From BD2-11 clade cluster bacterium bin43 (GTDB taxonomy: Bacteria > Gemmatimonadota > Gemmatimonadetes > Longimicrobiales > Gaopeijiaceae): a stretch of DNA of 64,000 bases. Position 1 is the stretch's first letter. Every line of letters begins with the position of its first letter. The notes under the pieces are model-generated. The model did not search any database. It was given only the letters and a program-made list of their open reading frames with translations, and was not told the DNA's origin. Made by a program: the position numbers and the translations under genes. Positions 2,428 through 11,402 of this stretch are shown in pieces. Where the stretch lies: positions 1-64,000 of the forward strand of contig MPMR01000017.1 of assembly GCA_002238605.1 (NCBI GenBank). The letters run 5' to 3'.

Positions 2428-3558
2428 TCACCGTACCAATCGTGGCTGGAACACCAAGACACGCACATCGCCAGACGCGACCTCTTCCGCCGTGTACATC
2501 ATGCCGCTGGCGCAAACCGGGGCGAGCGTGTTTTCGAAGCGAAGCTGTGCCAGAACCCGCCCGCTGGCGGTCTCAATGACTTCCACCATGGTATCCAGCA
2601 CCCGCTCATTCCACGCGGGATTCGGGCGCTCCGGCGGCCCGGGAGCCCAGTCCTCGTCGGGAACCAGCGAATATGTCCAAAGCAGGCCGTCCGAGGATTC
2701 CCAAACGTGGGTGAGCCAAGAAGGCGGCGGCTCGCTCACATACATTTCATCAGAAGGGGCGTTGTTCAATGGGAACCAATCGACCCCATCGCGAACCAGC
2801 ATGTATTCCAAGGAATCAGCGTGTGCCCACCGGTGCAGTTCGTACTTCCAACCGCTGGCGGTCCAAAAACCACCGTGGGCACCACTGCTCACCACCCACT
2901 GATCCAGATCCGCCAGATCGGTGGCCACCCCTCCGAAGGATCGCACTTCTCCGGCATCACGGTCCACTAGGGAAAAGCGATCTTCCGAGTCGCCCGCCAA
3001 GCCCGAAGGTCGCCCGTGAACCAGCAGTTGCCCGCCTTCCAGCAACGCCAGGGACTGGATGCGGCGTGGCAAGCGAACGGTGCCCACGGCTTCACTATCG
3101 AGCAAGGTGGTCAATCGCAGATAAGAGTTGTCAGCAACCAGCACCACGTCGTCCGATTCAACGACGATGTGAAGATCCGTGCCGTACTCCCCTGGACCCT
3201 GTCCAGATCGCCCGATTGTATGGAGCATCGACCCGCCTGAATCGTATACCCCAATCTGACCGCCCCCGACAAGCCCGCTGACCGCCCACGTTCGGTTGGG
3301 AAACTGAGCAACCATGCAAGGCCAGACGCTCACGTCGGGGCGAATCGAAGCTGAATCGTCGTCGGCACCAAGTCTTGCCACTTCAACGAGTTCGATGGAG
3401 CACCCGGGACACTCCTCGGTGTCGAGGACCTGTCGGATGGCGTGTACGGCCTCGGGAGTCTCATCATTGCCACAGCCCACAACTGTCAACAGCACGAGTG
3501 GCAACGCGACTCCAAGTCGCAAACGAGGCGCCAGCCGAATGCAGAGAGGGGCGGTCAC
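2428..3558 (-). CDS. 6-bladed beta-propeller lipoprotein
   Basis: A 376-residue protein. Residues ~10-29 are a lipoprotein signal sequence ending in LLTVVGCGND, where the Cys would be lipidated, so it is probably anchored in the envelope. Around residue 115 it has IGRSGQGPGEYG, the GxGPGEY motif of the 6-bladed beta-propeller family, and it ends in LVFQPRLVR, a plausible C-terminal strand. It also carries a pair of cysteines in TEECPGCSIE just after the signal region, a CxxC that might form a disulfide. It is on the same strand as the next propeller gene but 686 bases away, so co-transcription is doubtful. No substrate can be proposed. Confidence 0.78.
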   Translation of the reverse strand: MTAPLCIRLAPRLRLGVALPLVLLTVVGCGNDETPEAVHAIRQVLDTEECPGCSIELVEVARLGADDDSASIRPDVSVWPCMVAQFPNRTWAVSGLVGGGQIGVYDSGGSMLHTIGRSGQGPGEYGTDLHIVVESDDVVLVADNSYLRLTTLLDSEAVGTVRLPRRIQSLALLEGGQLLVHGRPSGLAGDSEDRFSLVDRDAGEVRSFGGVATDLADLDQWVVSSGAHGGFWTASGWKYELHRWAHADSLEYMLVRDGVDWFPLNNAPSDEMYVSEPPPSWLTHVWESSDGLLWTYSLVPDEDWAPGPPERPNPAWNERVLDTMVEVIETASGRVLAQLRFENTLAPVCASGMMYTAEEVASGDVRVLVFQPRLVR

Positions 3559-3805: not shown

Positions 3806-4426
3806 TCAGTCTGCCATTTTGGCAGGTCGGTGACCTGAGGTCTCGGCCTCCCGCCCCCACGGCCGCACAAACGTCTCCGGCTCCACCCCCAGCCCGTCGG
3901 CCACGCGGGTGATGTAGTTGAAATACCCGATCACCTGGGTCGCGTCGTGGATCGCCCGGTCGTCGAAGCCGTGGCCGCGCAACACGTCCAGGTCGTCCGC
4001 CCCCACTTCCGCCTGCCTGAGCGTCAGCTTCTCCGCGTATCCGCACAGCGCCTGGTCCGCCTCGGACAGTCCCGCCTCACGCCAGTCGCGCACGATGGCG
4101 TGCACGAAGGCGTCCCGCTCCTCGTCGCTCTCGAACAGCTCCTCGATCTCTTCCCGGAGATCATGCGCGTGCGCCTGCTCTCAGTAGAAGCAGCCGTTCA
4201 CCTTCGAGGTGACCACCGCGAGCATCTCGCGGCGCCATCGGTTCAGTGGCGAGGACCCGAACATGAGGGTTCGGTAGAACCCCATGGTGGTCTGCATGAC
4301 CCGGGGGTTCAGGCTCATCACCCGCACGATGTTCCAGATCCGGCCGGCCCGGTCCTGCGCTTCGCCGTAGAGCCTGCGCAGGAGGCCGGTGGCTTCGGAT
4401 TCGGAGATCTGTCTGATGTTGGACAT
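3806..4426 (-). CDS. Selenocysteine-containing AhpD-like / carboxymuconolactone decarboxylase-family peroxidase
   Basis: The frame from ATG 4426 to TGA 3806 is 206 codons with one internal TGA at complement 4181-4183 (codon 82). Before it the frame reads MLAVVTSKVNGCFY; after it EQAHAHDLREEIEEL and continues in frame through YAEKLTLRQAEVG and VIGYFNYITRVADGLGVEP. This is one peroxidase-related protein of the AhpD/CMD superfamily. These enzymes use a CxxCxxxH motif to reduce peroxides; here it reads C-F-Y-[UGA]-E-Q-A-H, so the TGA replaces the second catalytic cysteine, with the His four residues on. A perfect hairpin follows (separate entry). I therefore read the TGA as selenocysteine. Split into ORFs of 81 and 99 residues, neither half would be functional. 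It lies 40 bases downstream of the outer-membrane barrel gene. Confidence 0.85.
4145..4162 (-). promoter_or_regulatory. Putative bacterial SECIS hairpin for the AhpD-like selenoprotein
   Basis: On the coding strand, 18 nt after the UGA begins gatctc-cgggaa-gagatc: a perfect 6-bp stem with a 6-nt loop carrying GGG. The stem arms lie at +19 to +24 and +31 to +36 after the UGA and the apical GG at +26. Bacterial SECIS elements are stem-loops just downstream of UGA with a GG in the apical loop, bound by SelB. The hairpin in the second UGA gene (43723-43739) is in the same register. Confidence 0.8.
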
Positions 4427-10469: not shown

Positions 10470-11402
10470 ATGCCCGCTACGCTGCGAAAGAAGGTCGTTC
10501 GTCGAAAGAAGAAGGTTGTTCGTCGACGCAAGAAGCGCTCGACCAGCCTGCTCGTCGGTTTTGACACCGGAGTTGAGGAACAGAGTGCGCTCGACCAGTA
10601 CCTGCGCGATGTCAGCCGGCATGAGCTGATCACCCCGGAGCAGGAGAAGGTGCTCGGAGCCCGGGCTCAGCTCGGCGACGAGGACGCGGTGCAGGAACTG
10701 GCGCGCGCCAACCTGCGGTTCGTCATCAGCGTGGCCAAGAAGTACCAGAATCGGGGGGTATCGCTCACGGACCTGATCCAGGAGGGCAACGTCGGCCTGG
10801 TTACGGCGGCGCGGAAGTTCGATCCCGAGCAGGGGGTCAAGTTCATCAGCTACGCCGTGTGGTGGATCCGCCAGGCCATCCTGGCCTCCCTGGCCAATCA
10901 GGGCCGCTCGGTGCGGGTTCCCCTGAATCGCGCCTCCGACCTCGCGCGCATCTTCCGCGAGAAGGAGCGGCTGCGGCAGGAGCGCGGCCGCGAGCCCTCC
11001 CCCGAGGAGCTGTCCAAGGCCACCCGGCTCACGCCCGAACTGATCGAGTCGCTCCAGACCCTGAACGCCGCCGAAATCCGTCTCGACGCGCCCATCGGCG
11101 ACAGCGAGGACTCCCAGCTGGTGGAGCGGTTCCTGACGGAGGAGGCGACCGAGCCCGAGCTGGGGGTGGAAGCCCGTCTGCTGGCCGAGTCGGTCAACGT
11201 CGCGCTCACCACGCTCGAGGCCCGCGACGCCAAGGTCCTGCGCCTCTATTTCGGGCTGCAGGGCGAGCGGGAGCACACGCTGGAGGAGATCGGCAACATG
11301 CTGGGGGTCACGCGCGAGCGGATCCGCCAGCTGCGCGACCGCGCGCTGCGCCGCCTGCGGGACGGCGAGAAGGGATCCGCGCTGGAATCCTTCGCCGCGT
11401 GA
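10470..11402 (+). CDS. RNA polymerase sigma-70 family (RpoD/SigA-type) factor with a basic N-terminal tail
   Basis: A 310-residue primary-like sigma factor lacking region 1.1. From residue ~43 it has region 1.2 (LDQYLRDVSRHELITPEQE), region 2 (NLRFVISVAKKYQNRG, DLIQEGNVGLVTAARKFD, FISYAVWWIRQAI), region 3 (RVPLNRASDLARI) and region 4 with the -35 helix-turn-helix TLEEIGNMLGVTRERIRQL (~residues 270-288). It directs RNA polymerase to promoters. The unusual part is residues 5-23, almost only Lys, Arg and Val, encoded by two near-identical direct repeats (KKVVRRK). The ATG at 10470 is followed immediately by this tail; the next start codon inside would remove it. It may be a second, group-2 factor or the organism's major factor. 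Confidence 0.93.
   Translation: MPATLRKKVVRRKKKVVRRRKKRSTSLLVGFDTGVEEQSALDQYLRDVSRHELITPEQEKVLGARAQLGDEDAVQELARANLRFVISVAKKYQNRGVSLTDLIQEGNVGLVTAARKFDPEQGVKFISYAVWWIRQAILASLANQGRSVRVPLNRASDLARIFREKERLRQERGREPSPEELSKATRLTPELIESLQTLNAAEIRLDAPIGDSEDSQLVERFLTEEATEPELGVEARLLAESVNVALTTLEARDAKVLRLYFGLQGEREHTLEEIGNMLGVTRERIRQLRDRALRRLRDGEKGSALESFAA

Follow-up and report, generated by a model that had tools for sequence, protein, structure and literature searches.

AhpD-like selenoproteins carrying a CxxU motif have been known since 2005, when 27 sequences with predicted SECIS elements were described from the Sargasso Sea under COG2128 (PMC1088965). In the Global Ocean Sampling table of 2008, “AhpD-like 1” was the fourth most numerous family, with 299 sequences (PMC2398784), and a 2026 catalogue lists AhpD-like selenoproteins under TIGR01926 (PMC13188914). 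For the enzymes with cysteine at the active site, the proton relay of M. tuberculosis AhpD includes Glu118 (PMC3141380), and a D. radiodurans mutant without its AhpD-like protein shows raised sensitivity to H2O2, for which complementation needs the CxxC cysteines (PMC8945050). Judged from its sequence, the gene described here is an added member of this selenoprotein family. It lies in a 64,000-nucleotide stretch of Gemmatimonadota DNA, designated “the window” (the whole stretch that was analyzed). An earlier note on the same DNA had already stated that the family is not new, and the three catalogues above agree. A Gemmatimonadota host for AhpD-like selenoproteins was not described in the literature searched, which also held nothing to the point on Gemmatimonadota selenoproteins in general.

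The gene occupies a single minus-strand frame of 206 residues, with its sole internal TGA flanked by C-F-Y before and E-Q-A-H-A-H-D-L after, and with a second TGA as terminal codon (3808-3806). The earlier note had claimed a frame of 206 codons interrupted only by the internal TGA, which ordinary annotation would split. Translation bears this out, and the plain ORF list breaks the gene into pieces of 81 and 99 amino acids. Translation through the TGA gives a protein whose residues 4-183 score 129 bits against TIGR01926 (peroxidase-related enzyme; cut-off 81.8). Its Pfam CMD score is 31.8 bits (cut-off 23), and it is the only TIGR01926 member in the host genome. The AlphaFold2 model is all-helical with a pLDDT of 93.1. 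Its best structural match is the D. radiodurans AhpD 6k40 (TM 0.79/0.88, rmsd 2.0, 36% identity). Among solved structures, 6k40 is also the nearest in sequence (E 1.6e-28); further AhpD-like proteins of the peroxidase-related kind are near the model in fold. In an alignment of 30 relatives, E67, C79, Y81, residue 82 and H86 are invariant, and all 30 contain the CxxUxxxH motif (here C79-F-Y-U82-EQA-H86). The spacing from E67 to Cys79, Tyr81, Sec82 and His86 is 12-2-1-4, as in the relay of PMC3141380. The earlier note had assigned the gene to AhpD/CMD with the TGA at the second Cys, four residues ahead of the His. This placement agrees with the Cys-form homologues, where the second Cys of CxxC falls in this column: nine of these, from eight Gemmatimonadota genomes, were aligned, and 9/9 show TGC or TGT at the TGA column. 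Coordinates are collected in Table 1.

Table 1. Positions in the window of the predicted selenoprotein gene and its features.
Feature	Position	Strand	Evidence
AhpD-like (TIGR01926 / CMD) gene, predicted selenoprotein	3806..4426	-	206 residues with predicted Sec82; profile matches, pLDDT 93 model, closest solved fold 6k40
In-frame UGA, probable selenocysteine; residue 82 = second Cys of CxxCxxxH	4181..4183	-	TGA in 79/79 relatives; TGC/TGT in 9 Cys-form homologues
Cys79 codon, putative resolving partner in C-F-Y-U	4190..4192	-	Invariant in 30 aligned sequences; TGC/TGT in 79/79 relatives
His86 codon of CxxUxxxH	4169..4171	-	Invariant (30 sequences); spacing as M. tuberculosis AhpD His137 (PMC3141380)
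Glu67 codon, counterpart (by spacing) of the proton-relay Glu118 in M. tuberculosis AhpD	4226..4228	-	Invariant; PMC3141380
Bacterial SECIS hairpin (supported by conservation)	4144..4163	-	Stem GATCTC (4162-4157) / GAGATC (4150-4145) with flanking U-G (4163/4144); apical loop CGGGAA (4156-4151), starting 24 nt past the UGA

The in-frame UGA at residue 82 was interpreted as selenocysteine, at a probability of about 0.96, within an AhpD-like thiol/selenol oxidoreductase. Decoding would proceed via SelA, SelB and SelD, tRNA-Sec and the hairpin; this machinery and the hairpin can be read directly from the genome, and their use at this codon is predicted. The earlier note had come to the same reading, which is now supported by column conservation, coding signal, sel genes, hairpin and the selA/Cys-form split. 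It had named selA, selB, selC and selD as genes that the genome should contain, and all four were found: SelA at 522 bits, SelB at 317 bits with SelB-wing_2 and wing_3, SelD at 300 bits, and tRNA-Sec (selC) at 74.8 bits with anticodon TCA (UCA in RNA). Note that the host genome is a MAG, 97% complete and 1% contaminated, in which the sel genes are on other contigs than this gene. All six same-genus genomes tested have selA. Within Gemmatimonadota, selA was present in 19/19 Sec-form genomes versus 0/9 Cys-form genomes, the latter being the eight mentioned above plus G116 (an uninterrupted frame in which the column was not read). Fisher's exact test gave p ~1.4e-7, computed by hand with relatedness ignored. 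A scan of the window for other TGA-interrupted frames gave eight further candidates, none with CxxU or UxxC at the TGA; the one at 11400 belongs to a sigma-factor-like gene, of which it forms the end.

Readings of the TGA without selenocysteine were weighed against its distribution among relatives. Standard ORF calling terminates the frame at this codon, as would be expected if it were a genuine stop, or a lesion in a pseudogene, with no more than a relic downstream. This is extremely unlikely and is refuted by conservation. A set of bacterial and archaeal genomes supplied 80 relatives. The alignment covers the TGA column in 79 of them, and all 79, from several phyla, have TGA there and TGC or TGT as the first Cys codon. 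Because the search patterns had residue 82 back-translated as Cys, they carried no bias toward TGA. Among 395 Gemmatimonadota genomes, an in-frame TGA was found in all 65 matches at ~50% identity or more, and most TIGR01926 matches above the cut-off in 298 genomes of the phylum contain one. Codons past the TGA differ from those of same-genus relatives chiefly at the third position (changes of 5/2/19 at codon positions 1/2/3 against relative L017), as do codons before it. Purifying selection past the TGA is as strong as before, and both His86 and the C-terminal domain required for the fold are encoded there. The existence of Cys homologues might instead point to a sequencing or assembly error that turned TGC or TGT into TGA, and the earlier note would have given up selenocysteine had resequencing shown either codon. 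Same-genus genomes from independent assemblies carry the same TGA, and it recurs in assemblies produced by several projects, so that the probability of such an error is vanishingly small. Read-through alone leaves the residue unnamed: given a suppressor tRNA or an altered code, UGA could also stand for another amino acid, such as Trp or Cys. We consider this very unlikely. The gene and most of its close relatives terminate in TGA; UGA is therefore also an ordinary stop, which favors recoding that depends on context over a change of the genetic code. Moreover, the column is Cys in the Cys forms, whose genomes are without selA, and the tRNA-Sec is present in the host together with the full Sec machinery.

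A further alternative accepts the selenoprotein and takes the hairpin 18 nt past the UGA as incidental, with SelB recognizing something else. The earlier note had reported a perfect 6-bp hairpin with a GGG-containing loop at this distance from the TGA. It is indeed found there, with six perfect pairs and a flanking U-G. The published bSECIS model (PMC13188914, Fig. 2 legend) asks for 4-16 bp in the stem and 3-9 nt in the loop, a G within the first two positions of the loop, a distance of 16-37 nt from UGA to loop and an MFE <= -7.5 kcal/mol. The hairpin agrees with it on every point, having a stem of 6-7 bp and a loop of 6 nt with G second, 24 nt from the UGA. An RNA fold of the sequence past the UGA, as that note had proposed, put the hairpin by itself at -7.5 kcal/mol and a 53-nt stretch at -16.1. 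The energy did not set the region apart: z was -0.48 over the 53-nt stretch from the UGA onward, and -1.9 over the hairpin of 20 nt. Folding energy was dropped as SECIS evidence in view of the z value over 53 nt, and a synonymous-recoding null and conservation were used instead. Because the energy is unremarkable, the case for a SECIS rests on conservation and not on stability. In the null model, amino acids were kept and codons were redrawn from the gene's own codon usage; for the window gene, 0.25% of the recoded sequences formed a complete 6-bp stem. Across 60 members of the window's clade, all six pairs are intact in 56, versus ~6 expected by synonymous recoding, and the remaining four retain five of the six. 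The stem Leu codon is CTC in 60/60; in the rest of these genes the figure is 31%. Every member has a loop that starts with CG[G/T]. Note that the stem bases double as codons of the conserved HDLREEI, and conservation is therefore partly coding. The unexceptional energy and the unpaired stem position in four relatives are what an incidental hairpin would lead one to expect. Stem conservation far above the synonymous expectation, the constant loop start within published constraints and the lack of either hairpin register in Cys-form homologues of the phylum make that reading very unlikely, and support the hairpin as a conserved bacterial SECIS.

Covariation was also considered and was rejected as stand-alone proof. 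For the stem pair formed by offsets 20 and 33, 44 sequences have C-G and 14 have T-A, with a synonymous Asp change on one side and a Val/Ile change in the protein on the other. This is a single covarying pair whose switch amounts to ~3-4 changes on the tree, and there are too few independent pairs for significance. An Rfam scan of the window returned nothing at gathering thresholds. Three Planctomycetota sequences (L066, L070 and L072) have a GGTC tetraloop with an extra closing C-G pair (CCTCC-GGTC-GGAGG) in the register of the window clade.

The window clade, with hosts in Gemmatimonadota, Chloroflexota and Planctomycetota, forms one side of a branch with 99% SH-aLRT. A sister group (L077-L096, motif CxYU...HHGAGLR), hosted by Gemmatimonadota, Acidobacteriota, Calditrichota, Krumholzibacteriota and others, has the hairpin ACGGAG-CGGGT-CTCCGT at offsets 10-26 after the UGA, with its loop 16-17 nt past the UGA. 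This hairpin is 7-8 nt nearer the UGA than that of the window clade, and six full pairs are present in 15/19 sequences tested, versus 0.3 expected by recoding. In the window clade, the invariant Leu-Arg codons CTC-CGK supply the loop and the 5′ side of the stem; in the sister group (there CTC-CGT) they supply the 3′ side. From these alignments we favor, with modest confidence, a change of SECIS register within one selenoprotein family, in which the hairpin would have slid those 7-8 nt along conserved codons with Sec fixed. The tree requires two changes of Sec/Cys state. The window clade looks Sec-only, there being no Cys form of it in the tree sample, which was drawn using the window's own protein and therefore over-represents this clade. 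If true, the register shift would serve as nature's own experiment on which UGA-SECIS spacings SelB tolerates.

The gene product is predicted to be a soluble, all-helical TIGR01926 oxidoreductase with the active site E67...C79-F-Y81-U82...H86. SelA and SelD would make Sec-tRNA(UCA), and SelB would bind the hairpin, with its G-rich loop starting 24 nt past the UGA, and bring in the Sec-tRNA. By analogy with AhpD, the Glu/Tyr/His relay may activate residue 82, the selenolate at this position may attack peroxide or an oxidized partner, and Cys79 would then resolve Sec82 as a selenenylsulfide. On homology, we infer a thiol/selenol oxidoreductase acting in peroxide defense. An AhpD-type activity would consist in reducing peroxides, or partners of the AhpC/OsmC type, at the expense of a lipoyl or thioredoxin donor; of this the analysis covered the relay residues, which are conserved. 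A gene for an Omp85-superfamily outer-membrane protein (4466 to ~6239, minus strand) lies 39 nt upstream and is co-oriented. The pair formed by this gene and the selenoprotein gene, together with an adjoining pckA-like gene, is conserved in same-genus loci and absent from the more distant loci compared, and the neighborhood therefore offers no functional clue.

Several observations concern the surroundings of the gene and the records used for comparison. The C-terminal ~13 residues (194-206) are peculiar to the window gene, relatives stopping at 193-201 residues, and this tail is predicted to be disordered. DNA similarity to same-genus genomes ends near 3852, which suggests a genomic breakpoint just within the 3′ end of the gene (window 3806-3850). 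Downstream are two minus-strand ORFs of 376 and 419 amino acids (2428-3558 and 482-1741) without a Pfam match, in a region that varies between same-genus genomes. Records L017, L018, L020 and L021 are titled “Gammaproteobacteria bacterium”. These names look wrong, because the records share ~90% identity with the Gemmatimonadota-like genome of the window and cluster with the genus to which it belongs.

Compared with the AhpD-like CxxU family (COG2128/TIGR01926), the gene shows no difference of kind: the HMM family, the predicted Sec at the second motif position and a bacterial SECIS just past the UGA are shared. Note that this likeness is by profile and motif. NF041238 (AhpD_rel_CFYUT, alkylhydroperoxidase-related (seleno)protein) is homologous in its AhpD domain and has C-F-Y-U letter for letter, but the match scores 58 bits, below the cut-off of 175, and covers only positions 175-338 of the 357-residue model; it was set aside as a related, distinct family. 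The Deinococcus radiodurans AhpD-like protein (PDB 6k40) has the same helical fold and a CxxCxxxH site, with Cys where Sec is predicted here. M. tuberculosis AhpD, which has AhpC and the lipoyl SucB/Lpd as partner proteins, is distant in sequence, and the spacing of its Glu118, Cys130, His132, Cys133 and His137 equals that of E67, C79, Y81, U82 and H86 (PMC3141380), so that its Cys133 corresponds to the putative Sec. Tyr81 stands in place of His132, and Tyr is also found in P. aeruginosa PA0269 (PMC3141380). To this known family the locus adds a well-documented selenoprotein in Gemmatimonadota, where the family is very largely Sec-encoded and would be truncated by ordinary gene calling. Because Sec and Cys forms are split cleanly by selA and two hairpin registers occur in one family, these sequences should be of use for testing models of the bacterial SECIS.
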